Shown here in pieces: positions 5,988 to 37,250 of a stretch of 64,000 nucleotides of DNA. The translations under genes were made by a program, and so were the position numbers. Every line of letters starts with the position of its first letter. Position 1 is the first letter of the stretch. Origin of the DNA: Rothia sp. SD9660Na. Lineage in GTDB: Bacteria; Actinomycetota; Actinomycetes; Actinomycetales; Micrococcaceae. The notes beneath the pieces are model-generated. The model was not told the origin of the DNA. It did not search any database and saw only the letters and a program-made list of their open reading frames with translations. The stretch spans positions 1,674,001-1,738,000 of the forward strand of contig NZ_CP125946.1 of NCBI RefSeq assembly GCF_030064065.1, given 5' to 3'.

Positions 5988-7550
<1,563 letters not shown>

Positions 7551-8753
7551 TTAGAGGCCCAGGCGCTGGTCGCGGGCTGAAGCGACCTTGGAGGACAAAC
7601 CGAACAGCTCAATGAAGCCGCGGGCCATGGACTGGTCGAAGGTGTCGCCCTCATCGTAGGTGGCCAGGTTGAAGTCGTAGAGGGAGGTCTCTGACTTACG
7701 GCCGGTAACAACGGCGCGGCCACCGTGCAGGTCCATGCGGATATCGCCGTTGACCATCTTCTGGGTGTCGTTGATGAAGGCGTCCAGGGACTTCTTCAGC
7801 GGGGAGAACCACTGGCCGTCGTAGACCAGTTCGGTCCAACGCTGGCCAACAATCTTCTTGAAGCGGGCTTGCTCGCGCTCGATGGTGACGTTTTCGAGTT
7901 CCTTGTGGGCAGCCATGAGGGCCATAGCGCCGGGGGCCTCGTAGATTTCGCGGGACTTGATGCCGACCAGACGGTCTTCAACGATGTCGATACGGCCGAT
8001 GCCCTGGGCACCTGCACGGCGGTTCATAATCTCGATAGCTTCAAGCGGGGTGACAGCCTGGCCGTCGATGGCAACGGGGATGCCTTCCTTGAAGGAGATG
8101 ACGACGGTATCGGGGGTGGGGGCGAAGGTGGGGTCGTCGGTGTAGTCGTAGACGTCCTTGGTGGGACCGTTCCAGATGTCTTCGAGGAAGCCGGTTTCAA
8201 CCGCGCGGCCCCAGACGTTCTGGTCGATGGAGAAGGGGTTCTTCTTGGTGGTGACAATCGGCAGGTTGTTCTTTTCTGCGTAGTCGATGGCCTTCTCACG
8301 GGTCAGGGCCAGGTCACGTACGGGGGCGATGCACTTGAGTTCGGGGCCCAGGGTCTGGATGCCAACCTCAAAGCGGACCTGGTCGTTACCCTTGCCGGTG
8401 CAGCCGTGGGCAACGGTGGTGGCACCGAACTGCTTGGCGGCGGCCACCAGGTGCTTGGTAATGACGGGGCGGGAAACAGCCGATACCAGGGGGTAGGCGT
8501 CCATGTAGAGGGCGTTGGCCTTGAGGGCGGGCATGCAGTACTCGTTGGCAAATTCATCGCGGGCATCTGCCACGTAGGCTTCTACAGCACCGCAGTCGAG
8601 AGCACGCTGGCGGATGGTCTCAAGATCCTCGCCGCCCTGCCCTACGTCAACGGCAACGGCAATAACTTCTGCGCCGGTAGCTTCGCCGATCCAGCCGATG
8701 GCAACTGAGGTGTCGAGACCGCCTGAGTAGGCCAGGACGATGCGCTCTTTCAT
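7551..8753 (-). CDS. argG: argininosuccinate synthase
   Basis: Joins citrulline and aspartate with ATP to make argininosuccinate. The N-terminal PP-loop YSGGLDTS lies at residues 9-16, followed by the conserved blocks [13 protein letters not shown] and [12 protein letters not shown]. 400 residues is the family length. AAGGAG precedes the ATG. The promoter upstream overlaps two ARG boxes, so ArgR with arginine should repress it. Together with argF and argH this gives a complete ornithine-to-arginine route. Confidence 0.96.
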
Positions 8754-8807: not shown

Positions 8808-8838
8808 ATAATTATGCACACTCAGACATAATTATGCA
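8808..8838. promoter_or_regulatory. double ARG box upstream of argG
   Basis: Two identical 11-mers ATAATTATGCA start at 8808 and 8828, exactly 20 bp apart, about two helical turns. This is the usual arrangement for hexameric ArgR. The same spacing recurs upstream of argF and argC. Confidence 0.82.
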
Positions 8839-8975: not shown

Positions 8976-9374
8976 ATGCTCAAGAAATACATGTTCGGAA
9001 TCCTGCTTCTAGCAGCTGTTGGAATGGTTGCCGCTCTCGCTCTACTCATAAGCTTTCGAGGCCAGCTCGGCTATGAGGTAGACCCCATCGTCCTTGACCG
9101 CACCACCTCCCCCAGCTCGTCAGCGCCCGCCTCTGCTAGCTCATCGCCGTCGGCGACAAGCGAGAGCCCCAGCCCTGAGCCCACTACGAAGCAGGCAGCT
9201 GACCAGGCCACCCCGGCTGAAGAAGCCCCCGCGGTCGTGGAACAGGCACCGGCACCTGTGGTTGTCGAGCCAGCCCCCGCCCCCGTCGTCGTGGAGCAGG
9301 CACCCGCGCCAGCCCCGGCACCGGAGGACGATGACGACGACTACGAGGTCGATGACGATGGCCACCATGACTAA
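8976..9374 (+). CDS. membrane-anchored protein with Ser/Pro/Ala linker and Asp-rich tail
   Basis: I do not recognise a family. The 132 residues comprise an N-terminal membrane segment (about 7-27), a Ser/Thr/Pro-rich stretch, an Ala-Pro-Val repeat region (copies of the type PAPVVVEQ/E) and a C-terminus dominated by Asp, ending in Gly-His-His-Asp. It is probably anchored in the membrane with a long extended outer arm. The acidic, His-containing tip could bind cations, which is inference. It is the first gene of the operon that continues into a sensor kinase, with the ends overlapping. No clear ribosome-binding site precedes the ATG. Confidence 0.7.
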   Translation: MLKKYMFGILLLAAVGMVAALALLISFRGQLGYEVDPIVLDRTTSPSSSAPASASSSPSATSESPSPEPTTKQAADQATPAEEAPAVVEQAPAPVVVEPAPAPVVVEQAPAPAPAPEDDDDDYEVDDDGHHD

Positions 9375-10950
9375 CCCCCTCAAAAAGCTCCGGTCCAAGC
9401 ATCACTCACAGGAGCAGACCAGTGTGCAGAACCAGCGCACCGGGTCAGTGCGCCTGCGCATCGTAGCCTGGATGGTTCTGGTCACGGCTTTCATCATCAC
9501 CGGCCTGATCTTCACAGTGCGGGAGATTCTCATCAGTGAGGTAGGCACCAACGCCGTAGCAAGCACCGAAAGCGAAATTTCAGAGTTCCGCACCTTCGCT
9601 GAACTCGGAGTAGACCCCACCACCGCTGCCCCCTTCGAAGACCTAGACCAGATGCTCACAGCCTTTGTCTCCCGCCAGTTCACCGGCTATTCAGAACAGC
9701 TCATCGGTGTAACCAGCAACCAAGTCATTTTCATCGAAGAGCAGCAAGACTACGCCGAAGAAACCGGCTACAGGCTCCACCAGGACCAGAATCTACTGGC
9801 GCTCATCACAGGCTACGAGCGGACGTCGGGGATTGAGCAGACCCCGGCCGGCCCGGTTCACTGGGGCAAGATGGAGGTCACCCTCAACACCGATACCGGA
9901 ACCCAAACCGGGCACCTCATTGTTGTGGGATACATCCAGCCTGAGCTCGATGCAGTGCAACACACCATCGTCACCATGATTTGGGTAGGGCTCGGTGGGC
10001 TGGTAGCTACCGTGCTCATCGCCTGGCTGGTTGCAGGCAGAATCACCAAACCGATTCGCAGCCTACGCACCGTAGCCCAAGCCATTAACGATAAAAACTT
10101 TTCAGGTCGAGTCGCCGTCAAGGGCGATGACGACGTGGCCGCAATGGGCCACACCTTTAACCAGATGCTTGACAGATTGGAGGAGTCAGCCATGATTGAA
10201 CGCCAGTTTATGGACGATGTCAGCCACGAGCTGCGCACCCCCATCACCATCGTGCGCGGTCACCTTGAGCTCATGGACCGCACCGAGGAACAGGACCAGA
10301 CCCTGCAGCTGGTTGACGACGAACTAGAACGCATGGGGCGTATCGTCGCTGACCTGCTCACCCTGGCCAAGTCGGAGCGTCCGGACTTTGTCTCTCCCCA
10401 CCCGGTCGACGTAGCAGATTTGATGATCACCCTCGATTCAAAGGTGCAGGCCTTCACCGACCACCGCTGGATGATTTCAGATATTGCCGAAGGTGAGGTT
10501 GATCTTGATGAACAACGCATCACCCAGGCTATGGTGCAGCTCTGCGCCAACGCTGCCCAGTACTCCCCCGAGGGAACCACCATTTCTATCGGCTCAGCTT
10601 TCGAGGGAACAGGCCCACAGCGTGAACTCAAGCTCTGGGTACGTGACCAGGGCCCCGGCGTCAGTGCAGAAGACGCTGCCACCCTCTTCGAACGCTTCAA
10701 ACGCAACAACGCGAAGAACCCCGCCACCGCCAAAAAGCACTCGGTGGGAGCAGGTCTGGGGCTGGCCATCGTCCGCTCCATTGCAGAAGCCCACGAGGGT
10801 TCCGTATGGATTGCCCAGCCCGACGACGGAATCGGGGCAATCTTTGGTATCACCCTGCCGGTCAACGCCCCCGCAGAGAGCGGCAAGGACGACACCGACG
10901 CCCTAGCAGACAACGTCTCCAGCGTTCGCTACCCCAGCTGGACCAAATAA
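9358..10950 (+). CDS. membrane sensor histidine kinase
   Basis: Two-component sensor of the HAMP-containing class. Membrane segments lie at about 34-54 and 203-225, enclosing an outer domain of about 150 residues. Then come HAMP, a HisKA domain with the phosphorylated His in DDVSHELRTP (about residue 290), an ATP-binding N box (NAAQYS, about 398) and G boxes DQGPGVS and GAGLGLA. The open frame extends upstream to 9094, but there it only shadows the preceding gene; I choose the ATG at 9358, with GAGG nine bases upstream, and the ATG at 9367 is an alternative. It overlaps the previous gene and is followed by its regulator and a carboxylate transporter, so the signal may be that transporter's substrate. 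Confidence 0.9.
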   Translation: MATMTNPLKKLRSKHHSQEQTSVQNQRTGSVRLRIVAWMVLVTAFIITGLIFTVREILISEVGTNAVASTESEISEFRTFAELGVDPTTAAPFEDLDQMLTAFVSRQFTGYSEQLIGVTSNQVIFIEEQQDYAEETGYRLHQDQNLLALITGYERTSGIEQTPAGPVHWGKMEVTLNTDTGTQTGHLIVVGYIQPELDAVQHTIVTMIWVGLGGLVATVLIAWLVAGRITKPIRSLRTVAQAINDKNFSGRVAVKGDDDVAAMGHTFNQMLDRLEESAMIERQFMDDVSHELRTPITIVRGHLELMDRTEEQDQTLQLVDDELERMGRIVADLLTLAKSERPDFVSPHPVDVADLMITLDSKVQAFTDHRWMISDIAEGEVDLDEQRITQAMVQLCANAAQYSPEGTTISIGSAFEGTGPQRELKLWVRDQGPGVSAEDAATLFERFKRNNAKNPATAKKHSVGAGLGLAIVRSIAEAHEGSVWIAQPDDGIGAIFGITLPVNAPAESGKDDTDALADNVSSVRYPSWTK

Positions 10951-10991
10951 AACTCTTAGACCCGACCGCACCATCAGAAAGAAGCCCCGCC

Positions 10992-11654
10992 ATGAGCCAT
11001 ATCCTGATCGTTGAAGATGACCCGCGCATCTCGTCCTTTATCGTCAAGGGCCTGAAATCAGCCGGCTACACCTCAACCCTGATTGACGAAGGCCGCTCCG
11101 CCTACGCCCTGGCCAAGGTCAGCGACTTCGACCTCATCATCCTCGATGTGGGTCTTCCCGGTATGGACGGATTTACCATCATGAAGTCCCTGCGGGCTGA
11201 GGGCATCACCACCCCCATCATCATGCTCACCGCCCGTGACTCCGTTTCAGACACCCTCGAAGGTCTTGAAAACGGCGCCAACGACTACATGACCAAGCCC
11301 TTCCAGTTCGCTGAGCTGCTCGCCCGCATCCGACTGCGCCTGCTCGACACCAACCGCGAAGAAACCAACGCCTCGACCCTGGCCCACCGTAACCTTGAGC
11401 TTAACGTGCTGACCCGCCAGGTCACCGTCAACGGCACTATCGCTGAACTCACCAGCCGTGAATTCGCCCTGCTAGAGACCTTCATGAGGCACAAGAACCA
11501 GGTGCTCTCCCGAGAGCAGCTCCTGGGGCAGGTCTGGGGCATGGATTTCGACCCCAATTCAAACATCGTTGACGTCTACATTCGCGCACTCCGCAAAAAA
11601 ATTGGTGATGACTACATCGCCACCGTTCGAGGGGCAGGCTACCGATTCGTATGA
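10992..11654 (+). CDS. OmpR/PhoB-type response regulator
   Basis: Partner of the upstream kinase. The receiver domain carries acidic residues D9/D10, the phosphorylated Asp at 52 (LDVGLPGMDG) and a conserved Lys near 102 (TKPF). A winged-helix DNA-binding domain follows, ending in VRGAGYRFV. 220 residues is standard. The start is the ATG at 10992 after AGAAAG; the frame is open further upstream only as a shadow of the kinase gene. The stop overlaps the next start in ATGA, so the transporter is translationally coupled and is a likely target. Confidence 0.93.
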   Translation: MSHILIVEDDPRISSFIVKGLKSAGYTSTLIDEGRSAYALAKVSDFDLIILDVGLPGMDGFTIMKSLRAEGITTPIIMLTARDSVSDTLEGLENGANDYMTKPFQFAELLARIRLRLLDTNREETNASTLAHRNLELNVLTRQVTVNGTIAELTSREFALLETFMRHKNQVLSREQLLGQVWGMDFDPNSNIVDVYIRALRKKIGDDYIATVRGAGYRFV

Positions 11655-13168
11655 AACTTCTCTACTCATCCACCAATGCGCCGGCGCAGGAACCTGCCGT
11701 CATCACTGCTCCCCTCGCCATCGTCAAACCCAGCTTCATCACCGGCAAGCTACTGGTCTCCTTCTTTGTTGCTGTACTCCTCATCGGCGCTACTTCTATC
11801 ACCGGACTGACCTCCACCGAGCTTTCACTTGAAGGCGCGCTGACCCTAGCTATCTTTATTCTTGCTATCTGGGCCTGGGTTTTTAGCCCTCTCTCAGATA
11901 CCTACGTCTCGCTGGCAGCAGCTGTAGCCCTGGTTCTAACCGGCATTATCAGCACCGATCAATTCACAGCCTCGCTGGGCACCTCAGCCGTCTGGCTGCT
12001 GGTGGCAGCTGTGGTAATGGCTCAGGCTCTGACCGCGTCCGGTCTGACCCGCCGTCTCACCGCCCGGCTCGTCGCCCTAGCCCGCACCCCGCGTCAGCTG
12101 GCCCACCTCTACAACCTGGCGCTCTTTCTGACCGTCTACTTGGTGCCCTCCCCCTCAGGGCGTGCCGCACTTGCTCTGCCGATCTACCTGGCTATGGCTG
12201 AGGCTATGCCCGACCGTCCCAAGCTGGTCAAGGCTCTGGGTATTCTGGCTCCCTCAACGATCCTGGTTTCTGCCGTAGCCAGCTTTATCGGAGCGGGTGC
12301 CCACCTGGTCACCGCCGAAATCCTGGTGGCCTACGGACTAGAAACCATCGGCTTCTTAGAGTGGATGGTTCTGGGCTCAGGGCTGGGTCTGTTCGCCTCG
12401 CTCCTGGTCACCGAGCTGGTCTTCATCCTCTTCCCCACCCGAGACGACGCCCCGGCAAAACTACATATCGACCTTACAGACTTTGAAACCGAAGGCGGCA
12501 CTCCCGTACGAGGCTCTCTCACCCAGGCAGAGAAAAACATCGCGTTGGTACTCGGCCTTGCAATCCTGCTCTGGTGCACAGAGTCCTTCCACGGGGTAGA
12601 CCCGGTGATTGTGGCCGTGCTCGGTGCCCTGGCTGCCAGCGCTCCCCGTTTCGGTTCGGTCAAGCTCGCTGCCGCTCTCAAAAAGGCTCCCTGGCCCATG
12701 CTCATCTTCATGGCCACGACCCTGGCCATTGGTACCGCGCTCTCAGAATCGGGGGCCGCAACCTGGCTGGCAGAGTCAATCTTCTCCCCGGTTTCAGGGC
12801 TAGGACGCAGCGGCGCGGCAGCCTTCGTGCTTCTGGTCATTGCCCTCTCGACGGTGGCCCACCTGGTGATTCAGTCCCGCTCAGCCCGTTCGGCTGTGCT
12901 CGTCCCCCTGATTATCACCGCCGCGATTCCTCTGGGCGTCAACCCGGTAGCAGCCGCCTTCATCTCAACCGCAGCCGCCGGCTTCTGCCACACGCTGACC
13001 TCCAGCGCAAAGCCGGTAGCCCTCTTTGCCACCATTGACGGCCGCCCCACCTACACCCCATCCGACCTTCTCAAGCTTTCAGCCTGGCTGGCCCCACTCC
13101 ACGCAGCACTCATTGCCGGCTTCGCCTTCTTCATCTGGCCGGCCCTGGGCCTGCCCCTCTACCTCTAA
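11651..13168 (+). CDS. DASS/SLC13-family anion transporter
   Basis: Probable sodium- or proton-coupled importer of a di- or tricarboxylate or a similar anion, in the cytoplasmic membrane. It has at least ten hydrophobic segments over 505 residues and the paired SPSxR-type re-entrant motifs of the family (PSPSGRAALALP and a second site around VIQSRSARSAVLVPL). It is coupled to the response regulator upstream (overlap ATGA) and followed 29 bp later by a glycerate kinase. The substrate could therefore be glycerate or a compound converted to it, such as tartrate or glucarate; this is inference from context. Confidence 0.85.
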   Translation: MKLLYSSTNAPAQEPAVITAPLAIVKPSFITGKLLVSFFVAVLLIGATSITGLTSTELSLEGALTLAIFILAIWAWVFSPLSDTYVSLAAAVALVLTGIISTDQFTASLGTSAVWLLVAAVVMAQALTASGLTRRLTARLVALARTPRQLAHLYNLALFLTVYLVPSPSGRAALALPIYLAMAEAMPDRPKLVKALGILAPSTILVSAVASFIGAGAHLVTAEILVAYGLETIGFLEWMVLGSGLGLFASLLVTELVFILFPTRDDAPAKLHIDLTDFETEGGTPVRGSLTQAEKNIALVLGLAILLWCTESFHGVDPVIVAVLGALAASAPRFGSVKLAAALKKAPWPMLIFMATTLAIGTALSESGAATWLAESIFSPVSGLGRSGAAAFVLLVIALSTVAHLVIQSRSARSAVLVPLIITAAIPLGVNPVAAAFISTAAAGFCHTLTSSAKPVALFATIDGRPTYTPSDLLKLSAWLAPLHAALIAGFAFFIWPALGLPLYL

Positions 13169-13197
13169 ATCACCACACCTTTACAAGGAGAAACACC

Positions 13198-14439
13198 ATG
13201 ACTATGTCCATTCCCCAGCGTATTCTGATCGCCCCTTCCGGTTTCAAGGGCTCCCTCGAAGCTGATGTTGTAGCGGACGCCATTGCTTCCGGTATCCGCC
13301 GCGTGATTCCCGGTGTCAACACCGTGACCATGCCGATTCCAGACGGCGGTGAAGGTACCGCCAAGATGCTGGCTGGTTCCACCGGCGGCAAGCTCGTGCA
13401 CACCAAGGTCACCGGCCCCGTAGGCCAGCAGGTTCGTTCCCACTACGCCCTGCTCGGCGGGGCCCAGGACGGCGTCGCGGTCGTTGAAATGGCAGCGGCA
13501 GCAGGGCTCTCCCTGGTACCTAAGGACCTGCGTAACCCCGCTGAAACCACCACCTACGGGGTGGGGCAGCTCATTGCTGCGGCACTCGATAACGACGATG
13601 TACACACCGTGCTGGTAGGCTGCGGCGACTCAGGCACCTCAGACGGCGGTGCCGGTGCCCTCTCAGCTTTGGGTGCCCGCATCCTCAACGAGGCCGGTGA
13701 AGAAATCCCCCTCGGCGGCGCTCACCTGACCGAGGCAGCGTCCATCGACTACTCCGGCCTGCACCCCCGCCTGGCCCAGGTGCGCATCGTCCTGGCTCTC
13801 AACCAACACAACATCCTGACCGGCCCCAAGGGCGTTGCCCGCGTCTTTGGTCCCCAGAAGGGTGCCACCCCCGAACAGGTTGAACAGCTGGATGCGGCCC
13901 TGACCCACTGGGCTAACCTGCTGGAGGAAACCTACGAGGACATGACCGACGGCAAGCTGCAGATGAACTTCCACACCGGGGCGGGCACCGGCGCATCCGG
14001 CGGTCTAGGGGCAGGACTGGCCTTTATCGGTGCCGAACTCACCCCCCGCTTTGAAGCGCTCATCGACTCCGGTCTGGCCGGCATCAATCTCGACGAAGAA
14101 ATCCGCCACGCTGACCTTATTGTCACCGCAGAAGGCGCTATCGACTTCCAGACCCCCAAGGGCAAGGTTCCTGCAGAAATCGCCGCCCGCGCCCAGGGCT
14201 CTGGTGCTCCTGTGCTGGCCCTGGCTGGCTCTATCGGTAAGAAAGCCTACCGCGTACACGATGCCGGCATCGATGCCTTTGCCTCGATCATCCCCCTGCC
14301 CATGGATCTCGAAGATGCCCTAATCAACGGTGAAGAGCTGCTGACCGACTCGGCAGAGCGCACCTTCCGCATGATTCTGCTGGGTGCTTCCCTCTCAGCC
14401 TCCATGCAGTCCCGTCGGGCGCAGCTGGCTGCCGCCTAA
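13198..14439 (+). CDS. glycerate kinase (GarK/GlxK family)
   Basis: Phosphorylates D-glycerate with ATP, feeding glycerate into glycolysis. The family blocks are clear: APSGFKGSLEADVVADAIASG near the N-terminus, PIPDGGEGTAKML, the GCGDSGTSDGGAGAL region and a conserved TGAGTGASGGLGAGL stretch. 413 residues is slightly longer than usual (about 380). GGAG lies seven bases before the ATG. As last gene of the two-component/transporter operon it suggests regulated use of an outside carboxylate. Confidence 0.92.
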   Translation: MTMSIPQRILIAPSGFKGSLEADVVADAIASGIRRVIPGVNTVTMPIPDGGEGTAKMLAGSTGGKLVHTKVTGPVGQQVRSHYALLGGAQDGVAVVEMAAAAGLSLVPKDLRNPAETTTYGVGQLIAAALDNDDVHTVLVGCGDSGTSDGGAGALSALGARILNEAGEEIPLGGAHLTEAASIDYSGLHPRLAQVRIVLALNQHNILTGPKGVARVFGPQKGATPEQVEQLDAALTHWANLLEETYEDMTDGKLQMNFHTGAGTGASGGLGAGLAFIGAELTPRFEALIDSGLAGINLDEEIRHADLIVTAEGAIDFQTPKGKVPAEIAARAQGSGAPVLALAGSIGKKAYRVHDAGIDAFASIIPLPMDLEDALINGEELLTDSAERTFRMILLGASLSASMQSRRAQLAAA

Positions 14440-16709: not shown

Positions 16710-17189
16710 TTAGGCCGCCCACTCTAGGAAGAGGCCAGCAACCTTTTCACCGCCATTGGGGTCGCGGGTGATGACCATGACGGTGTCGTCGCCCGCGATG
16801 GATCCCAGCAAGGGCTCAAGACCTGCCTGGTCAATCGCTGAGGCCAGGAACTGGGCTGCACCTGGCGGGGTACGCAAGATGACCAGGTTGGCTGAGGCCT
16901 CCGCGGTTACCAGCAGTTCTTTGAAGAGGGAAACGAGGCGGGCGTCGGGCCCTTCCTGACTGCTTCGACGGACGGGGTGGTTGGGCACGGCGTAGATGAG
17001 CCCGGATTTTTCATCGCGCACCCGCTCTGCGCCAATTTCCACCAGGTCGCGGGAGAGGGTTGCCTGGGTGACTTTGAGCCCGTCGTTGGTGAGGATCTGG
17101 GCCAGTTCTGCCTGTGAGCGCACACGGTGGGTTTGGAGTACCTCGATGATGCGGGCTTGCCGCGCGGTTTTGGTGGAGGGAATCGCCAT
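16710..17189 (-). CDS. argR: arginine repressor
   Basis: Arginine-responsive repressor (hexamer) that binds ARG boxes. It has an N-terminal winged helix with the family sequence TQATLSRDLVEIGAERV and a C-terminal arginine-binding/oligomerisation domain containing GSIAGDDTVMVI. 159 residues is typical. It lies 25 bp after argF and is probably co-transcribed with it. Its targets in this window should be the double boxes upstream of argG, argF and argC. It remains intact although much of its regulon is broken. Confidence 0.95.
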   Translation of the reverse strand: MAIPSTKTARQARIIEVLQTHRVRSQAELAQILTNDGLKVTQATLSRDLVEIGAERVRDEKSGLIYAVPNHPVRRSSQEGPDARLVSLFKELLVTAEASANLVILRTPPGAAQFLASAIDQAGLEPLLGSIAGDDTVMVITRDPNGGEKVAGLFLEWAA

Positions 17190-17214: not shown

Positions 17215-18171
17215 TTAGCTAAGGGCTGTGCGGACGTCGGTGGCTAGCTTGGACTCGGCGAGCAGGAAGGCCATGAGGGCTTTTTGGGCGTGCAGACGGT
17301 TTTCTGCTTCGTCGAAGACCACGGAGGCGGGCCCGTCAATGACTTCGGCTGTGACTTCGTAGCCGCGGTAGGCGGGTAGGCAGTGCAGGAAGATGGCACC
17401 GTCGGCGGCCTTGTTCATGGCTTCGCTGGTGACGGTGTAGGGCTTGAAGACCTGAGCGCGGGCTTCTTTTTCGTCCTCTTGACCCATGGAGACCCAAGTG
17501 TCGGTGATCACGACGTCGGCGCCGACCAGGGCCTGGTCGGGATCGGTGGTGACCAGGATTGAGCCACCGGTTTCGGTTGCCCGTTGCTGGGCTTCTGCGA
17601 TGACGGAGTCAGCAGGGAGGTAGCCGTCGGGGCCGGCGATACGTACGTGCATACCGGCGGTGGCGCCACCGAGTAGGTAGGAGTTGGCCATGTTGTTGGC
17701 GGCATCGCCCAGGTAAACCATGGTGAGGCCGGCCAGCTGGCCCTTGTGCTCGCGGATAGTGAGCAGGTCGGCGAGGATCTGGCAGGGGTGGTAGTCGTCG
17801 GAGAGAGCGTTGATGACGGGCACGCGCGAGTGCTGGGCCATTTCTTCGAGCCCTGCTTGGGCGTAGGTGCGCCAGATAATGGTGGAGACCATGCGGGAGA
17901 TCACCTTGGCGGTATCTGAAATGGTTTCCTTATGCCCAAGCTGGGCCTCCCCGGGGTTAACGATCAGGGGGTTGCCGCCGAGTTCTGCGATACCGGCGTG
18001 GAAGGAGAAGCGGGTACGGGTAGAGGTCTTGTCAAAAATGACGGCGGCGGTTTGGGGCCCTGCCAGGGGCTTGTAGCCGTAGCGATCCGCCTTCATGGAG
18101 GCAGCCAAATCGAGCACCTGTGCCTGCTCGGCGGGGGTGAGGTCGGTGTCTTTGAGGAAGTGGCGTACCAC
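17215..18171 (-). CDS. argF: ornithine carbamoyltransferase
   Basis: Makes citrulline from ornithine and carbamoyl phosphate. The carbamoyl-phosphate site STRTR lies at residues 50-54; HPCQ, the DTWVSMG loop and the HCLPAYRG motif are all present, so the enzyme should be active. 318 residues is normal. Its own double ARG box and presumably promoter lie just upstream, so it can be expressed without the broken argC-J-D transcript. With argG and argH it turns imported ornithine or citrulline into arginine. Confidence 0.96.
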   Translation of the reverse strand: MVRHFLKDTDLTPAEQAQVLDLAASMKADRYGYKPLAGPQTAAVIFDKTSTRTRFSFHAGIAELGGNPLIVNPGEAQLGHKETISDTAKVISRMVSTIIWRTYAQAGLEEMAQHSRVPVINALSDDYHPCQILADLLTIREHKGQLAGLTMVYLGDAANNMANSYLLGGATAGMHVRIAGPDGYLPADSVIAEAQQRATETGGSILVTTDPDQALVGADVVITDTWVSMGQEDEKEARAQVFKPYTVTSEAMNKAADGAIFLHCLPAYRGYEVTAEVIDGPASVVFDEAENRLHAQKALMAFLLAESKLATDVRTALS

Positions 18172-18213: not shown

Positions 18214-18244
18214 CATTATATGCACAGTTACTGATAATTATGCA
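18214..18244. promoter_or_regulatory. double ARG box upstream of argF
   Basis: Box copies end in TATGCA at 18224 and 18244, exactly 20 bp apart; the second contains the full ATAATTATGCA found at argG. It lies between argF and the argD remnant, which suggests that argF has its own regulated promoter. Confidence 0.78.
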
Positions 18245-18298: not shown

Positions 18299-18980
18299 TT
18301 ACTGCTGTCGTGCCTCAGCCAGAATCGCTGGGAAGGCAGCGGTGAACTCCGCTAGTTCGGCGTCGGTGATGGTCAGGGCCGGGGCGATGCGGACGGTTCG
18401 GGCGTCCGGGGCGTTGACGATGAATCTTGCTGCCCAGGCCCTTGGCCAGAGTGATGGCGTCTGGCAGGTTCTCGCCGGTGGGTTCACGGGCACGGGTGAG
18501 GTAACTTGCGAGCAGAGGCAGGATGCCGTCCTCCCTCTGGATGGGTTCGACGATGAGGGCAGCGACGTCGTCGGTCAGATTTTCTTCGAGGGCTTCGAGG
18601 GTAGCGGGTATATGTTTGATGCCGGTGGGAAGCGGTTCGAAGGGCTCACGGTAGGCGGGCTTCCAGGTGAGGGAAAGAGCCCCGATAGTTCGCCCGTGGA
18701 AGCCGTGGTCAAGGGCGAGGATGGTGCCTTTGCTGTGGAGGTTACCGTGGCGGCGGGCAAGTTTATAGGCAGCTTCGTTGGCTTCAGTGCCGGGGTTGCA
18801 GAAAAAGACTTTGCCATCATCGGCGCCCAGGTAACCCAGCAGGCGGTGGGCCAGAGAGATTTGTTGGGGGCTGGTGAAGAAGTTCGAGACGTGGGCTAGG
18901 GTTGCAGCCTGCCCACTCACGGCTTTCACCCAGGCGGGGTGGGCGTGGCCAAGGGCGTTGACGGCTATGCCGCCGAGCAG
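18299..18980 (-). pseudogene. argD: acetylornithine aminotransferase remnant
   Basis: Recognisable ArgD pieces: LLGGIAVNALGHAHPAWVKAVS, the HVSNFF block, FFCNPGTEANEAAYKLAR, HGFHGRTIGALS and LAKGLG. The first 35 to 45 residues are missing, and the reading frame runs straight on from an argJ fragment. After SYLTRARE the segment that should carry the DEVQTG motif is gone. After LAKGLG a further deletion and frame change lead to the C-terminus (ARFIVNAPDARTVRIAPAL). The PLP-enzyme core is destroyed, so no activity is expected. Confidence 0.92.
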
Positions 18981-19336
18981 GTCGGCAACGAGTTCAGCGG
19001 ACGCGTGCGTGTCTTGGAAGCCGGGGCACCGGTGCAGGCGTTAGCGCCGCCGGAGTTGAGCAGGATGGCGTCAGCCCGCCCGCCGCTGATGACCTGCTGG
19101 CTCCACAGGACGGGGGTAGCGGCAAAGCGGTTGCTGGTGAAGACGGCGGCAGCGTGTTTGACGGGCCCGTCATTGACGACCAGGGCGACGTCCTTTTTAC
19201 CCTCGACGGCGCTGATTCCGGCGCGGACGCCCGCGGCGCGGAAGCCCGCGGCGCGGAAGCCCGCGGCGCGGAAGCCCCGGGGGAAGATGACTCCCTGGGT
19301 GGTGATGCCTTCGATCTGGTGGATAGTGTCGGTCAC
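18981..19336 (-). pseudogene. argJ: glutamate N-acetyltransferase remnant
   Basis: Only the first quarter of ArgJ is left. It starts with GTG overlapping the argC stop (GTGA). The family blocks ITTQGVIFPRGFRAAG, DVALVVND, AAVFTSNRFAA and GGANACTGAP are readable. After the last block one G is missing (frame change), then PGFQDTHASAELVAD continues and joins argD at its LLGGIAVN block. The catalytic Thr region, the rest of argJ, all of argB and the start of argD are absent, which implies a deletion of roughly 1.9 kb. A 15-bp repeat has also expanded near the N-terminus. Confidence 0.92.
19229..19273. repeat. three tandem 15-bp repeats in the argJ remnant
   Basis: Unit GCCCGCGGCGCGGAA three times in a row. 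In the argJ frame it gives a repeated Gly-Phe-Arg-Ala-Ala. Intact ArgJ proteins have one such unit, so the array is an in-frame expansion. Confidence 0.85.
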
Positions 19337-20377
19337 GGTGCGAGTCCTTCCTGGAGCAGACCTGCGTTTTCGGGGAGCCCGAGGGCAATGTTCATGGATT
19401 GGATGGCACCTCCGGCGGTGCCCTTGGCTAGGTTGTCGATGACGCTGGTGACAATCACGCGCCCGGCGTGGGCGTCGAAGGCCAGCTGCATTTCGGCGTG
19501 GTTGGAGCCCTGCACGCTCTTGGTGGTGGGCCACTGCCCTTCGGGGAGCAGAAGCACGAACTGCTCGCTGACGTAGGCAGCCTGCCAGGCTTCACGCAGC
19601 TGGGCCTCGGTCACGCCGGGGCGCACGCGCGCGGTGGCGGTGGCCAGAATGCCGCGGGGCATGGGAGCCAGGGTGGGCGTAAAGGAAATCTGCACCTGCT
19701 CCCCCGCTATGGTGGAAAGTTTTTCTTCAATCTCGGGAGTGTGCCGGTGGGAGCCGCCAACCCCATAGGGGCTCATGCCGCCCATGACCTCTGCTGAGAG
19801 CAGGTGGGGCTTGAGGCTCTTCCCTGCCCCCGAAGGTTCCCGAGGCGGCAACGATGACAACATCGGTGGGTTCCAGCAGGCCTGCGGCAAAACCAGGAGC
19901 CAGGGCCAGGATGGACGCTGTGGGGTAGCAGCCGGGCACAGCAACTCGCTTGCTCCCCACCAGGTTCTCACGCTGTTTGCCGCTGAGGGTGGGCAGCTCG
20001 GGCAGGCCGTAGGGCCAGGTGCCGGAGTGGCCTGAACCGTAGAACTTGACCCAGGCGTCGGCGTTCTCTAGGCGGTGGTCTGCCCCGGCGTCAATCACCA
20101 GGGTGTTCTCGGGTAGCTGGGCTGCGATCTCGGCACTGGCCCCGTGGGGCAGAGCCATGAAGACTACGTCGTGCCCGCTCAGGGCTTCAGCGGTAGTATC
20201 GGCAACGACCAGGTCGGCATAGGCGCGAAGGTGGGGGGCGAGGTCGCCCAGGCGGGAGCCAGCGGACGAGTGCGCGGCCACGGTTTTATCCTCAACGTGG
20301 GGGTGGGTAGCCAGCAGGCGCAGAATCTCACCACCGGCATACCCGGTGGCTCCTGTGACAGCTACGGTGATAGTCAT
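19333..20377 (-). pseudogene. argC: N-acetyl-gamma-glutamyl-phosphate reductase, frameshifted
   Basis: ArgC should reduce N-acetylglutamyl phosphate. Both halves are well conserved: the N-terminal NAD(P) motif [14 protein letters not shown], the active-site region [11 protein letters not shown], then [24 protein letters not shown] and the C-terminal catalytic half. The frame breaks at about 19832-19835, where an extra T (ACCTTCGGGG for an expected ACCTCGGGG) interrupts the ASGTSGAGK block. The frames are open on both sides. It could be recent decay or a single sequencing error, but the ruin of argJ/argD next door favours decay. Confidence 0.88.
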
Positions 20378-20391
20378 AGCACCATCTTTGC

Positions 20392-20422
20392 ATGTTTTTG
20401 CACAGTAGTAAATATTTATGCA
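20392..20422. promoter_or_regulatory. double ARG box upstream of argC
   Basis: Box ends TTTTTGCA at 20402 and TTTATGCA at 20422, again exactly 20 bp apart, 15 bp upstream of the argC start. It is retained although the operon behind it is broken. Confidence 0.75.
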
Positions 20423-28160: not shown

Positions 28161-28166
28161 TTGAAC

Positions 28167-29123
28167 TTGCCCAAGTCACTCAAACCGGCCACCTCCCCTG
28201 AACAACAGATCGAGACCCTGCGTAGCCGTGGAATGCAGCTTGATGATTCTCTTGCCTATCAGTGGCTAGAGAATGTTAGTTATTACCGCCTTTCTGCTTA
28301 TTGGTACCCAGCTCGTGTGTTTGGAGCAGATGGAAAACGTGCAGATGTCGTACAGGAGGGGACCTGTTTCAGCGATGTTGTGGCTCTTTACGAGGCTGAC
28401 CGTAAATTGCGCACTCTTGTTCATGACGGCATTGAACGCATCGAAATAATGCTACGCACGCGGATTGGTGAACAGCTTGTTGCTAGCGGGCCGCTTTCCT
28501 ATAAAGATCCCCGTTATTTCCGCCCAGCTTTCGATCACGCTGGCTGGGTTAGCACCGCAAATAAAAGAGTAAAACGTGCGGCTCGCAGCAATGAACCTAT
28601 TAAGCACTACAAGACCGCGTACGGTGGTCAGTACCCCTTCTGGGTCTTAGCTGAGGTTCTAGATTTTTCTGATGTTTCTCGTTTGTTCGAGGGAATGCTC
28701 GCGCATGACCAACGAGCAATCGCAGAAGATTTGGGTATCGTGCCTGACTTATCTCTTTTGTCTAAGGAGCAGCAGCGCAAATTGAAGAAGCAATCGCCCT
28801 TAGCGCGTTGGCTTGAGCAACTTACCATTGTTCGGAATATATGTGCACACCACAGTAGGCTGTGGAACAAGTCTTTTACACCAGTCCCTACATCTGCGAT
28901 GCGCACACAAACAGAGTTTTCACTTTTACCCGAGTTCCAGAGCGAAGACCTCTTTGGTGCGTTACTAGTCATGGCCCATCTACTGCGTATCGCCTCACCA
29001 GGAACAACATGGCCTCAAAAAGTTGCTGACCTTATCAGGAGTGAGTTTCTACCTAACCCCTTAGTAACCCATAAAGCTATAGGGTTGCCTGAAAATTGGG
29101 AATTAGCTTTTGTTTCACCCTAA
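28167..29123 (+). CDS. Abi_2 (AbiD/AbiF) family HEPN abortive-infection protein
   Basis: Predicted HEPN RNase-type phage defence protein. About 318 residues match the Abi_2 plan: N-terminal QIETLRSRGMQLDD and YYRLSAYWYP blocks, a central RTRIGEQL region, FWVLAEVLDFSDVSRLFEGM, and the HEPN active-site motif R-x4-H as RNICAH (about 223-228) followed by HHSRLWN. I choose the TTG at 28167 with AGGAG seven bases before it; another TTG lies two codons upstream. The weak start codon fits tight control of a toxic protein. Transcribed away from the type I system; its codons are more AT-rich than those of the flanking genes. Confidence 0.88.
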   Translation: MPKSLKPATSPEQQIETLRSRGMQLDDSLAYQWLENVSYYRLSAYWYPARVFGADGKRADVVQEGTCFSDVVALYEADRKLRTLVHDGIERIEIMLRTRIGEQLVASGPLSYKDPRYFRPAFDHAGWVSTANKRVKRAARSNEPIKHYKTAYGGQYPFWVLAEVLDFSDVSRLFEGMLAHDQRAIAEDLGIVPDLSLLSKEQQRKLKKQSPLARWLEQLTIVRNICAHHSRLWNKSFTPVPTSAMRTQTEFSLLPEFQSEDLFGALLVMAHLLRIASPGTTWPQKVADLIRSEFLPNPLVTHKAIGLPENWELAFVSP

Positions 29124-29170
29124 TTTCTGTCGTATGCAGTTCTAACTGCCCAGAGTCTGTGTCAAGTCCA

Positions 29171-29200
29171 CCCGTCCCTCGCCTATGGATGAGGGACGGG
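29171..29200. terminator. terminator between abi and hsdR
   Basis: A perfect 10-bp stem CCCGTCCCTC with GAGGGACGGG, loop of 10, between convergent genes. Confidence 0.65.
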
Positions 29201-29219
29201 TATTCTATGTGTTACTTCC

Positions 29220-32200
29220 TTAGCTGATGATTTCGCTGAATCGCTCGTAGAACCGCTGTAAACGGTTGATAAGACGTTCCTTACGTGCAGCACGACTTTC
29301 GCCCGTTTGCGGGGCGAGCAAAACGGGAGCCGGTGGCCTTCATCAGCCGACCAATGCGTTCCCCATGGGTAGGTACTCCCCCGGCCAACCATGCATCAGC
29401 TATCAGCGCTCGTGTAGGTTCAGGGTTCAGCTTTTCCTCTTCAATAATCTTGTTGAGTTCGGCTGAAGACTGCTCCTGAACGTGCTTCTTCCATTCGCCC
29501 TGCACGTCGTCCTCGTCGAAGGAGACCTTGTCGAGGAAGTCTTCGATGAGGTCCTTTTTGTTGTGCAGGGTGGGGCTTGAATCAACGGCACGTGTAATCT
29601 GCGAGCGCACTTCCTCATCGGTTCCGTTACTTCGCCGGTACTGTTCGACCAGCATGAGAATATGGTCAACACCGACCGAAACCTGTTTGATGAGTTCGAT
29701 TTCGAAGACAAGATCTTCGGTAATATCTACAGGGTTGTTCTCGCTGCGTTCCCGCATACTGCGATAGATATCGAGGTAGTGCGATTGGTAGTCTTGCACG
29801 TCGCGTGGAGCAAGAGTGTCGTCAGCTTCAAATTCATCAAAGGCTGACAGGATGTTCCGGAGCTTCAGTACCTCACCGAAGAGCTTGACGAACTCTTTCT
29901 GCGCTTGTTCGCCGAGCCCTCCTGAGCCCAGCACGTCGAGGGAGAAGTCTTTCTGCAGGGCTTCAAGGTTTTCGCGGTAGGTTTCGAGGTACTCTGCGTA
30001 GGGTTTGAGCAGGACGGTGGCACGGGCGTCTTTGTTGCCGAAGAGGGCGAGTGCTTCATCGGTTTCGGTCTCGAGGTTTCGGAAGCAGACGATGTTGCCG
30101 TAGGTTTTGACTGAGTTGAGAATGCGGTTAGTGCGACTAAAGGCCTGAATCAGGCCGTGGGACTTCATGTTTTTATCGACCCAAAGGGTGTTGACGGTCT
30201 TGGAATCGAAGCCGGTGAGGAACATATTGACCACGATAAGCAGGTCTAGTTCTCGGTTCTTCATTTTCTTTGAGACGTCTTTGTAGTACCTGTCGAAGCC
30301 TTCACCAGTAAGGTCGAAGGACCTGTCAAACATCTCGTTGTAGTCAGATACGGCCTCTTGCAGGAACATAAATGAGTCCATATCGAGCTCGCTGGGGTTC
30401 AGCGATTCCTCTGCAAGGAAGTCATCAGAGTCGTCGTTATTTGGTGCGGCAGAGTAGATTACTGCGATCTTGAGGGGTTCTATGCCGTGTTCTTCTAGCC
30501 GCTGCTGTTGAATTTTTTGGAAATTACTGTAGTAGATTCTAGCCGCTTCGATGGAGGCGGTGGCCAGGATTGAGTTGAAGCCTTCAAGGCGCTTGTCTTT
30601 GAGCTGGTAGGTTTCGTTGCGCTTTGTTTTTTGGTCGTAGTGGTCGAGGATGTAGCGCACGATGGGTTTGATGCGTTCGGGTGAGCGCATAGCGGCTTCT
30701 GTTGCAATGCTGTATACCTCTGCGTCGTCAACCTTGTCTGCCAGTTTGACGCTGTTGTGGTATTCGACGCGGAAGGGCAGCACGTTCTTGTCACCGATAG
30801 CGTCGACGATGGTGTAGGTGTGCAGTTTTTCGCCGAAGGCATCCTGGGTGGTACGGAGTTTGACGTTCCCGCCGCTTTTTGCGTTGGCTTCGAAGATGGG
30901 GGTGCCGGTGAACCCGAACATGAAGTATTTTTTGAAGTTGCGAGTGATTGCTGTGTGCATGTCGCCGAACTGGGAGCGGTGGCATTCGTCGAAGATGAGG
31001 ACGACGGGTTCAGCAAAGATGGGGTGGCCGGGGTTCTTCTTGATGAACTGGTCGAGTTTTTGAATAGTGGTGATAATGATTTGGGCCCCGGGGTCTTCAA
31101 GCTGGCCTTTAAGAATCTTTGTTGAGGTATTGGAATTCGCGGCGCCCTTTTGGAAGGCGTCGTATTCCTTCATGGTCTGGTAGTCCAGGTCTTTGCGGTC
31201 GACAACGAAGAGGACCTTGTGTACGGTGTCGAGGTCTTTGGCGAGCTGGGCGGTTTTGAAGCTGGTGAGGGTTTTACCTGACCCTGTGGTGTGCCAGATG
31301 TAGCCGCCTGCGTCGATGGTGCCCTGTTTTTTGTAGTTTGTGGCGATGAGGATTTTTCGCAGGATTTTTTCGGTGGCCACAATTTGGTAGGGCCGCATGA
31401 CCAGGAGGTCTTTGTCGACGGTAAAGACACAGTAGCGGGTGAGGATGTTGAGCAGCGTGTGCCGGGCGAAGAAGGTTTTTGCGAAGGGGATGAGGTCGCT
31501 GATTCGTTTGTTGTTGTCGGTGGCCCACCAGCTGGTGAATTCGAAGGAGTCGGCGCTAGCCTGACGACGGCGACGCTGTGATCGCTGGGAGTCTACGTGT
31601 TTGTAGCGGACGGTGTTGGAGTAGTACTTGGTTCTGGTGCCGTTGGAGATAACGAAGATTTGGATGTAGTCATAGAGGCCGGAATCTGCCCAGAAGGAGT
31701 CTTTCTGGTAGCGGCGAATCTGGTTGAAGGCTTCTTGAATTTCGACCCCGCGGCGTTTGAGTTCTACGTGGACGAGGGGTAGGCCGTTGACAAGGATGGT
31801 CACGTCGTAGCGGTTTGAGGCAGCTCCCCCCATCGGTGACGTACTGGTTGATGACTTGCAGGGTGTTGTTGTGGATGTCGCGGCGGTCGATGAGTTTGAA
31901 GTTTTTGATGGTGCCGTCGTCGAGGGTGCAGGGTTGGATGGGCTCACGTTGGATGATTTGGGTTTTGTCGGTGTGGCTGGCGGTTGGGTTTGCTACGACG
32001 GTGGTGTAGAAGCGTTCCCATTCGGTGTCTGTGAGCTGGTAGTTGTTGAGTTTTTCGAGCTGGGTGCGCAGGTTGTTTTTGAGGTCTTCTGCGGTGTGGA
32101 GGGGGAGGTAGTCGTAGGCCTGACCTTGGAGGGTTGCGATGAGTTGGGCTTCGGTTTGGTAGGTGCGTTCTTGGTCGGCGGTGACGGGGATTTCGCTGGC

Positions 32201-32266
32201 GACGGTGTGCTCTTCGGTGAGCAGGATGGGGGTGATGGTGTGGGCTGGGTTGTGCTTGATGGCCAT
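29220..32266 (-). pseudogene. hsdR: type I restriction subunit HsdR, two frameshifts
   Basis: ATP-driven translocase and nuclease of a type I system. Readable parts: the N-terminal nuclease (VELKRRG core, QIRRYQ), Walker A TGSGKT, DECH box (FDECHRSQFGD), helicase motif TGTPIF, and motif VI-like QAFSRTNR. The N-terminal 147 residues are in one frame and the rest in another: the shift sits in a run of six G (31826-31831) where five would restore DGGAASNRYDVT. A second shift at 29302-29304 (GGG) swaps the normal ending ESRAARKERLINRLQRFYERF for a short false tail. The frame-corrected protein would be about 1,015 residues. It is either inactive, phase-variable at the G tract, or a pair of homopolymer read errors. 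Confidence 0.85.
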
Positions 32267-32374
32267 GGTTGTTCTTTCTTGGCTGATTCAGAGGCGTGTG
32301 GCTGTGTGGTGTGGGCGGTGTCGCCCCGGCTGGCCTTCGGGTGTGGTGTGCCGGGGCGACGGTGTTAGAGGGGG

Positions 32375-33619
32375 TTAGGCGGCTTCTGGTTGGAGTTCTT
32401 TGAAGGTGAGGAGCTGGTCGCGGTAGTACTCGTACTGTTTGCGGCGGGCAGCGATTTCAGCAGGCAGGCCGGAACTAATGTCATTGGCAAGGGCGTCAAA
32501 TTTATCTAATAGAATAACTATTTCTTTCTGCTTTTTCATATCAGGAACAGGTATCTTAACTCTAGAAATAGCGTTAGAATTAAACTGAGGTTGCCCACCA
32601 CGACTGACAAGAATTTCAGCCTGTTTCCAGTAATAGCTTGATTGCATAAAATGCCACAGGTACTTACCATCTAAAACCCCGTTTCGACAGGTAACCTTAA
32701 TCAAAAATGAGGCATAAGAAGCATCTATAGGTTTGTCAAAGTAAAGAGATTTACCAAAGGACGCACCAGTTCGCGCCACAACCACATCTCCAAAACTTAA
32801 CCTTTTCTTTCGAGACTCAGGAGAATCCTCCACATAAGCAAGAGAATCTTTTTTCAGATGTCCATTCTCATCAATATCTGTAATTCGGATAAACCTAACA
32901 GAACCCTCACTTTTAGCTGTTTCTGTCAAGCCATACTCGAAATCACAAACCTCTTTCAGCTCAACCACCTGGGAGGATTCCATTTCTTTTCGGACCAAAA
33001 GAGAATCCCTGAAATGAGCATGTTGCTTTCTCCGCGCCTCCAGCTCAGCCTCCAGCTCAGCCTCCAGCTCAGCCTCCAGCAAGGTGAATCTATCTAATAT
33101 TCTAACAATTTCTTCCTGAATTTTCAGCGGTGGCACAGGGATTTTAATCTTGGAAAAATTCTGTGATGATATTCTTTTAACTTTAGTTCCAGTAATAAAC
33201 TTTTCTTTTTGCTTCTGAAAGTCTGTCGAGTTTAGAAAGTAAGAAACAAATTTTGGATTAAGGTTTTCTGGAGAGTAAATCATAGCGTCACTACTTACAG
33301 CAACTGGAGAATTGCCTAGCCATGCAACAGCTTTCGCCAGGTCCTCATCGTTTTCACTTGTAGTAGCGATTACAACATCACCAGGTTGCGCTAGCTTAGA
33401 TTTACTAGCAACCGCTTTGTCAATAAATATGTAAGTTTCTGAAGCCCACAACCCATATCGAGTAAATATTTGACCGTAATGTATTGCAGGAAACCCTTGT
33501 TCAAGGAAATCTTTCTTTTGAATACCGTTGCCTCGCGTAAAGGTTCCAGTTGCCCCCATCGACAGGTGCACAACCCCATTTGGACATAGCTCTTCGATGA
33601 GTTCAGCAATCCTACTCAT
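32375..33619 (-). CDS. hsdS: type I specificity subunit HsdS
   Basis: Sets the DNA sequence recognised by the HsdM/HsdR complexes. Two target-recognition domains (about residues 10-165 and 205-365) are each followed by a conserved helix (PPLKIQEEIVRILDRF and PDMKKQKEIVILLDKF). The central helix carries a repeated EAEL segment. The 414-residue length fits. The ATG overlaps the stop of the DUF262 gene (TAATG), so expression is tied to it. The gene body is clearly AT-richer than the surrounding chromosome, typical of laterally acquired specificity genes. Confidence 0.93.
   Translation of the reverse strand: MSRIAELIEELCPNGVVHLSMGATGTFTRGNGIQKKDFLEQGFPAIHYGQIFTRYGLWASETYIFIDKAVASKSKLAQPGDVVIATTSENDEDLAKAVAWLGNSPVAVSSDAMIYSPENLNPKFVSYFLNSTDFQKQKEKFITGTKVKRISSQNFSKIKIPVPPLKIQEEIVRILDRFTLLEAELEAELEAELEARRKQHAHFRDSLLVRKEMESSQVVELKEVCDFEYGLTETAKSEGSVRFIRITDIDENGHLKKDSLAYVEDSPESRKKRLSFGDVVVARTGASFGKSLYFDKPIDASYASFLIKVTCRNGVLDGKYLWHFMQSSYYWKQAEILVSRGGQPQFNSNAISRVKIPVPDMKKQKEIVILLDKFDALANDISSGLPAEIAARRKQYEYYRDQLLTFKELQPEAA
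33037..33080. repeat. 12-bp tandem repeats in the central helix of hsdS
   Basis: CCTCCAGCTCAG repeated three times plus an 8-base partial copy, encoding Glu-Ala-Glu-Leu units between the two half-subunits. In EcoR124-type HsdS proteins the number of such four-residue units sets the spacing between the two half-sites. Confidence 0.9.
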
Positions 33620-35679: not shown

Positions 35680-35681
35680 CC

Positions 35682-37250
35682 CTATTTACCTTCCTCGAGT
35701 TCCGCCACAATGGCGTCAATTTCAATACGCAGCTGAGACTGGCGGGCAACGATTTGCTCAATCTCAGCATTCAGAGCAACTATATCGATGACCTCACGGG
35801 TGTCCTCAGCTTCAACGTAGGAGGACACTGAAAGGTTATAGTCGTTCTCAGCAATAGCGCTGTTATCAACTAGCCGGGCGAAATAGTCAATGTCTTGGCG
35901 CTCGGCGAGTGCGTCAAGAATCTGCTGGCGGTGGGCCTCAGTCAGAGTATTCTTATTACCTGAACGCTCAAAGAGGGCCGAGGCGTCTACAAAGAGAGTC
36001 TTGTTGTCCTTCTTCGATTTCTTGAGCACAATAATGCAGGTACCAATGGTGGTACCAAAGAAGAGGTCCGGCGGAAGCTGAATCACGGCGTCCACATAGT
36101 TACCATCAATCAGGTACTTACGGATCTTGCCCTCTGCTCCCCCGCGGTACAGCACACCGGGGAACTCAACAATGGCAGCCGTCCCGTTCTCTGCCAGCCA
36201 GTGCAGAATATGCATGGTAAAAGCCAGGTCAGCCTTCGACTTAGGAGCCAGCACACCAGCCGGGGCAAAACGCTCATCGTTAATAAGCAGGGGGTTAGCG
36301 TCGCCCTCCCACTTCACAGAATACGGCGGGTTGGACACAATCGCCTCAAAAGGCTCAATATCGCGGTGAGCCGGATCAAGCAAGGTATCCCCATGGGCGA
36401 TATCAAAGTTCGCATAGTTGAGGTCATGCAGGAACATATTAATCACGGCCAGGTTACGGGTGGTCAGGTTAATCTCCTGGCCAAAGAAACCTTCCTTGAC
36501 GTTTTCCTTACCCAAAACCTTGGCAAACTTCAGGAGTAGACCACCTGAGCCACAGGCCGGGTCATAGACCTTGTTGACCTTCTCCTTACCAGCCACAGCA
36601 ATATGCGCCAGCAGCTCAGACACAGCCTGCGGGGTATAGTACTCACCGCCCGACTTACCCGCACTTGAAGCATACATACCCATCAGGTACTCATAAGCGT
36701 CGCCAAAGGTATCGTTATGGGAATCCGCGAAGCTACTCAGCTTGAAGTTACCCACCTCGTTGAGCAACTTCCGCAACAGGTTATTCCGCTTAGGAATAGA
36801 AGACCCCAGCTTATTACTGTTAACATCCAGGTCATCGAAGAGACCACGGATCTTGTTATCTTCTTCGCTCAGAATCCCGCTAGCCGAGGATTCAATTCGC
36901 TTGAAAATTTCCTGTAATTCTTCGTTCAGGTTGTCATTGTTATGGTTAGCGCGCTGACGAACATTCTCGAAAAGGTCCTCAGGGAAGATAAAGAAGCCCT
37001 TTTCCTCAACTGTATCTTCGATAGCCTCCGGGTTCTCAGCAATCTCGACATTGGTCAGGGTTGCATAGCTGGGGTCGCCCTCATCTAACTCGCTATCAAG
37101 GTAGACCGTGAGGTTTTCCGAGATAAAGCGGTAGAACATGAACCCCAAAACGTATTGTTTGAAGTCCCATCCGTCAACGCTACCGCGCAGGTCATTCGCA
37201 ATTTTCCATAGGGCGCGGTGCAACTCTGCCCGCTCAAGTTCCTGACTCAT
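35682..37250 (-). CDS. hsdM: type I DNA adenine methyltransferase HsdM
   Basis: Methylates adenine at the site chosen by HsdS, protecting host DNA. It has an N-terminal HsdM helical domain, SAM motif I YDPACGSGGLLLKFA, catalytic motif IV NPPY, and the typical C-terminal coiled-coil (about residues 480-522). 522 residues is full length and no break is seen, so modification should work even if HsdR is lost. It is the first gene of the operon hsdM, DUF262, hsdS, hsdR. Confidence 0.95.
   Translation of the reverse strand: MSQELERAELHRALWKIANDLRGSVDGWDFKQYVLGFMFYRFISENLTVYLDSELDEGDPSYATLTNVEIAENPEAIEDTVEEKGFFIFPEDLFENVRQRANHNNDNLNEELQEIFKRIESSASGILSEEDNKIRGLFDDLDVNSNKLGSSIPKRNNLLRKLLNEVGNFKLSSFADSHNDTFGDAYEYLMGMYASSAGKSGGEYYTPQAVSELLAHIAVAGKEKVNKVYDPACGSGGLLLKFAKVLGKENVKEGFFGQEINLTTRNLAVINMFLHDLNYANFDIAHGDTLLDPAHRDIEPFEAIVSNPPYSVKWEGDANPLLINDERFAPAGVLAPKSKADLAFTMHILHWLAENGTAAIVEFPGVLYRGGAEGKIRKYLIDGNYVDAVIQLPPDLFFGTTIGTCIIVLKKSKKDNKTLFVDASALFERSGNKNTLTEAHRQQILDALAERQDIDYFARLVDNSAIAENDYNLSVSSYVEAEDTREVIDIVALNAEIEQIVARQSQLRIEIDAIVAELEEGK

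Follow-up and report, generated by a model that had tools for sequence, protein, structure and literature searches.

In Rothia sp. SD9660Na, the early genes of arginine biosynthesis (argC, argJ, argB and argD) are broken or gone, while argF, argR, argG and argH are intact. The gene losses are solid. The enzymes encoded by argC, argJ, argB and argD make ornithine from glutamate, and our results probably reflect a recent, lineage-specific loss of this glutamate-to-ornithine half of the pathway, with the rest kept for salvage of ornithine or citrulline under the control of ArgR; the salvage itself, and its adaptive value in this strain, we infer from sequence. In such a scheme, the cell would import ornithine or citrulline from its neighbours or its host, ArgF, ArgG and ArgH would convert them to arginine, and ArgR would repress the kept genes when arginine is plentiful. 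A separate ARG-box promoter would have allowed argF and argR to persist once the genes that precede them were lost. Host association fits the genus Rothia.

The stretch of DNA that we analysed, referred to here as the window, is 64,000 nucleotides long and comes from a four-contig assembly (G000) that totals 2,387,041 bases and has a completeness rating of 100%; the genome falls in the Rothia nasimurium group. The closest named match to its ArgF is that of R. nasimurium irhom_31 (94% protein identity), and the three longest DNA matches around the arg locus are 92–94% identical to the window, leaving aside one at 81%, with shorter matches ranging from 76 to 94%. Alignment of the argCJBD stretch to eight close relatives revealed a total of six lesions, all in genes on the reverse strand. 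The argC pseudogene (19333–20377) is split by a one-base insertion near 19834 into two overlapping ORFs (19727–20377 and 19333–19971) that match TIGR01850 at 1–187 and 181–345. The argJ remnant (18979–19336) matches residues 8–81 of the 405 in its family and carries both a one-base deletion near 19023 and, in a 15-base tandem array at 19219–19277 (reverse strand), two units more than the eight relatives, an in-frame expansion of 30 bases. A deletion of 2.05 kb, whose junction lies near 18978 (18971–18983) with 3–10 bases of microhomology depending on the relative, removed argB entirely, together with the greater part of argJ and the beginning of argD; its size is 2052 bases relative to four relatives and 2064, 2170, 2193 and 2193 bases relative to the other four. 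Two internal deletions, of 90 bases near 18488 and 317 bases near 18433, further affect the argD remnant (18299–18978). Matches to the family profiles likewise find argB gone and argD left in pieces. Thus, the frameshift in argC, the extent of the large deletion and the two additional argD deletions, all proposed in a first-pass annotation made from the window alone, are borne out by the alignment, which adds the argJ expansion and the one-base argJ deletion. The annotation had also described the argJ fragment as fused in frame to argD. At the junction the frame is indeed preserved, but the read-through is already broken some 45 bases upstream by the one-base deletion, so the argJ fragment is not read into argD, and the ORF carrying the argJ start ends at a stop at 18965.

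The four kept genes, all on the reverse strand, score over their family cut-offs, as expected from their earlier description as intact: argF (ornithine carbamoyltransferase, 17215–18171), argR (arginine repressor, 16710–17189), argG (argininosuccinate synthase, 7551–8753) and argH (argininosuccinate lyase, 5988–7475, with an uncertain start codon and a family match at 6033–7394). ArgF contains STRTR, HPCQ and HCLP, which we take to be its catalytic motifs. The regulatory sites have been kept as well. Using a double ARG-box pattern of a single fixed spacing that tolerated three mismatches at most, we found sites on the reverse strand before the dead argC (20397–20422, one mismatch, in agreement with the first-pass annotation), before argF (18219–18244, no mismatch) and before argG (8813–8838, no mismatch). 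There are ten matches to this pattern in the genome, and those with at most one mismatch lie only before argG, argF and argC; with the pattern reversed as a control, three places matched in G000, and in another genome, G006, 15 matched, versus 23 for the true pattern. Apart from a site before a candidate importer discussed below, the weaker matches in G000 number five, three of them inside genes, and two overlap the starts of a Na+/H+ antiporter-type gene and an AlbA-type gene. Weak matches at non-arg places also occur in G003 (ten), G006, G013 and G033.

A different explanation, which we consider less likely, is that decay has been caught midway: arginine would be imported, the whole pathway would be dispensable, and argCJBD would have been hit first by chance or on account of their size, making ornithine and citrulline irrelevant. 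Such decay would look similar to salvage. The retention of the late genes may be a lag, the loss being young, which speaks against salvage, and decay caught midway is favoured by the confinement of the loss to one tip among close relatives: in a pheT tree, G000 clusters with G016 and other close relatives, and all eight relatives compared have argB and argJ over cut-off. This tree covers 34 of 35 Rothia genomes, rests on one gene only and is midpoint-rooted; G001 was left out because its pheT match lies in pieces. Two frameshifted genes in other genomes, argD in G016 and argG in G004, each in two frames, point the same way if they represent decay, but they may be draft errors. The argG and argF sites that match the ARG-box pattern without mismatch argue against a pathway in general decay.

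Selection on the remnants argues against it as well. We counted private changes, that is, bases unique to one genome, as nonsynonymous or synonymous on the codons that survive in the window, of which argC contributes 347. The argC, argJ and argD remnants carry 19 nonsynonymous to 19 synonymous changes, versus 35:107 for the same codons in seven relatives pooled (one-sided Fisher test, p = 0.0029), whereas argR, argF, argG and argH show no such excess, with 14:53 in the window versus 47:231 in the relatives (p = 0.48). Adding the more distant G017 gave 19:16 versus 80:152 for the remnants (p = 0.020) and 11:37 versus 88:319 for the kept genes (p = 0.85). The comparison was made on the same codons because baseline constraint differs between genes: the ratios in G017, a genome where argB and argJ pass the cut-off, are likewise 47:77 versus 48:156. 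Constraint therefore seems relaxed in the remnants, with no measurable relaxation in the kept genes, on the basis of few counted changes, along a branch that includes time before the loss, in a stretch where identity to single relatives shifts, and with a sample in which argD of G016 is frameshifted and G004 supplied part of argG.

A second genome, that of a distant species, provides a parallel. G003 has no argB or argJ; its argC covers residues 1–217 and is closely followed by argD from residue 3, the latter with one stop and one frame change, and its argF, argR, argG and argH are complete. Judged from its sequence, G003 has the same early/late split as the window, produced by a different deletion, and in the pheT tree it stands apart from G000, so that two separate changes are needed. 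That dead early genes and complete late genes recur together in a separate case is a point against decay caught midway. The constraint on the kept genes of G003 is mixed, however. Since pairwise dN/dS was mostly saturated at synonymous sites, we used private replacements, which do not differ between dead genes (argC and argD, 43/610) and kept genes (argF and argR, 31/465; p = 0.37 against G002 and p = 0.57 against G027), and to this extent argF and argR there are not more constrained than the dead genes, as decay caught midway would have it. Relative to G002, G003 has 26 versus 10 private replacements in argF (307 positions), 20 versus 3 in argC and 23 versus 11 in argD. By contrast, argG (4/397) and argH (7/476) have few private replacements and evolve slowly, and retained function is therefore less supported for ArgF than for ArgG and ArgH. 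Taken with the motifs of ArgF and the lack of relaxation in the window strain, the parallel split lends indirect support to the annotation's suggestion that the strain can turn ornithine or citrulline into arginine.

We consider it very unlikely that an unrecognised internal route supplies ornithine and that the strain is no auxotroph. An argB profile search of its own genome gave only two matches, both below cut-off, which rank first in NCBIfam as glutamate 5-kinase and aspartate kinase, and an argJ profile search gave nothing besides the remnant. The argD profile, which should reach ornithine aminotransferases, returned the remnant and only two other genes, named from their matched stretches as 4-aminobutyrate transaminase (gabT) and glutamate-1-semialdehyde aminomutase (hemL). 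Without argB and argJ, the known glutamate-to-ornithine route is closed whatever the state of argC. The earlier proposal that the strain makes no ornithine from glutamate is thus well supported, the genome having no further copies of argB, argJ or argD. An arginase would consume arginine, not supply it, and the arcA profile found no arginine deiminase in this genome. We also rejected, as having a negligible probability, an error of sequencing or assembly combined with an intact operon at another site: single-base indels can come from assembly, but here the small indels occur together with three larger deletions (about 2052, 90 and 317 bases) and with relaxed constraint on the remnants, and such a set of independent lesions, with argB and argJ nowhere else in a 4-contig genome rated 100% complete, makes sequencing error unlikely.

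Of the 35 Rothia genomes, 23 have argB over cut-off, and exactly these 23 have argJ over cut-off too; argF passes in 27, argG in 25, argH in 26 and arcA in three (G002, G032 and G034); in G032 and G034, argF is over cut-off only beside arcA. In G032 (87% complete; loci L185 on C68 and L186 on C37), argR, argG and argH are present. The usual place of argCJBDF, from a dehydrogenase-type gene to argR, holds no ORF of at least 130 residues and no match to argC, argJ, argB, argD or argF, and elsewhere in this genome arcA adjoins an arcB-like gene. Seven genomes have none of argB, argJ, argF, argG and argH over cut-off, yet all seven have argR, an orphan arginine repressor with 72–75% identity, within their pheT regions (G001 at locus L204, G006 at L187, G013 at L188, G014 at L189, G015 at L211, G028 at L190 and G033 at L191). 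The six of these that the pheT tree covers (all but G001) form one clade at 100/98; our guess is that these may be mouth species. The seven genomes indicate that full loss is tolerated in the genus, which favours decay caught midway. Two further genomes, G024 (72% complete) and G031 (65% complete), were set aside as candidate losses, being too incomplete to place; contig ends of G031 fall within argD and a short way upstream of the gene adjacent to argC.

Some individual loci deserve mention in their own right. In G016 (apparently R. nasimurium irhom_31; L004, L095), argD is in two frames through a one-base insertion in a C run, which may be a draft error or early decay, and the split argG of G004 lies at C32:25152–26317 (L096). 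G034 (L102) has argB, argJ and argD over cut-off and no argF aligned at the usual place; its sole ornithine carbamoyltransferase over cut-off adjoins arcA.

Together, these genomes allow a broader and more tentative model, in which the arginine pathway of Rothia retreats stepwise, starting at the glutamate end and taking this same direction on repeated occasions, with each stage matching whichever intermediate provided by the community lies farthest downstream. The series would run from the full pathway to argF, argR, argG and argH (reached separately in G000 and G003), then to argR, argG and argH with arginine deiminase genes (G032) and finally to argR alone (the seven genomes), and the matching intermediates would be ornithine, citrulline and arginine. 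The separate ARG-box promoter of argF would make the split possible, and ArgR would end as a regulator of uptake.

The distribution of the predicted argF promoter suggests that this promoter may have made split loss possible. Scoring took in 25 of the 35 genomes, 24 of them with an alignable argF (G034 being the exception), and the predicted argF ARG box scored at least 10 in 14 of the 17 that belong to the loss-holding clade and in none of the seven others, a result that is partly circular because the scoring matrix was trained in part on five of those argF sites. Within the loss-holding clade, the scores are low in G002, G027 and G029. As a control, we scored 294 of 397 upstream regions of non-arg genes, from loci that partly overlap; 15 of the 294 reached 10, all apparently from one dehydrogenase-type gene (the family was checked for three), and the rest scored at most 7.9. 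In the three loci examined, this gene adjoins argC (L101 and L182) or argR (L185) and so sits at an arg promoter.

One ABC-type amino acid importer is a candidate uptake route in the window strain. A complete operon encoding a family-3 solute-binding protein, a permease and an ATPase lies at L272:3206–5708 (G000 C4:483705 onwards), divergent from a methyltransferase gene resembling ubiE; its match to a substrate family is below cut-off. The ARG-box-like site before it in G000 is weak (score 13.4, three mismatches, 3/200 shuffles as high). A copy of the binding protein with at least 47% identity is present in 26 of the 35 genomes, and a close copy is absent from the other nine (G003, G010, G011, G012, G023, G025, G026, G032 and G034); its absence from G003 and G032 is a further point against salvage. 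Upstream scores were at least 12.7 in 22 of 24 orthologues, with 11.2 in G033 and 7.2 in G031 (two copies could not be scored), and, in a less striking comparison, shuffles within each sequence scored as high in 0 to 5 of 200 cases for 23 of the 24 and in 13 of 200 for G031, although the best-scoring place and strand vary between orthologues. All seven argR-only genomes have a copy, six with scores of 14.6 to 20.3 (the other being G033), and the argR genes of these genomes are themselves preceded by weak sites (7.0 to 12.6). With an importer and an ARG-box-like site present in all seven, uptake may be the remaining task of ArgR in these genomes.

Split arginine auxotrophy is a known kind of event, found here in a new place, and the parallel, graded losses within one genus are the interesting part. 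Haemophilus influenzae and some gonococcal auxotypes are auxotrophic for arginine but can use citrulline for growth, having kept argF, argG and argH. The window strain resembles them in having lost the ornithine-making genes and kept the late ones. Unlike those gamma- and betaproteobacteria, however, Rothia is an actinobacterium with an acetyl-cycling argCJBD set, and its remnants are still readable. Within the genus, the accessible part of a 2026 report on Antarctic birds describes, in the form of KEGG modules, complete lysine, ornithine, arginine and proline pathways for R. ornithocola and incomplete ones for R. pygoscelis and R. antarctica, and that part gives no gene-level lesions or early/late split (PMC13347742). 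Among titles and abstract openings of the open-licence literature, we found no gene-level account of an early/late arginine split in Rothia. In Sodalis glossinidius, a host-associated bacterium whose pathway was, as here, broken by gene inactivation, argA, argC, argD and argG are described as inactivated and an arginine importer as kept (PMC3091646); with these genes inactivated, citrulline could not be converted to arginine there, the conversion predicted for the window strain. A source of free ornithine has been documented in the mouth community, where ArcD of Streptococcus gordonii cross-feeds ornithine to Fusobacterium nucleatum, the recipient being F. nucleatum and not Rothia (PMC4571851, PMC9426547). 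An infant oral study predicts ornithine exchange in which a Rothia is mostly the donor and Streptococcus the recipient, opposite to the direction that salvage proposes (PMC13004514). Ornithine also appears as a test substrate in the accessible text of PMC11237427.

The preferred reading, loss of the early half with salvage by the late half, leads to distinct nutritional predictions. The window strain should need arginine, replaceable by citrulline or ornithine, whereas the argR-only species should need arginine itself. Scoring at the level of modules, in which both would read as an incomplete arginine pathway, conceals which metabolite a bacterium can use. Amino acid dependence is otherwise often inferred from absent pathways, and here one genus shows intermediate stages, with remnants in the window young enough to put the loss later than the divergence from close relatives.

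Finally, we note two features of the surrounding DNA. The region between argG and argR (9094–14439) encodes a sensor kinase, a response regulator, an anion symporter and a glycerate kinase; it is largely matched in several relatives, and only a short stretch of it is matched in R. nasimurium irhom_31 (L004). Farther along the window, positions 28161–37250 form a defence island with an Abi_2 protein, a type I restriction subunit R, a GmrSD-type restriction gene and a type I methylase.
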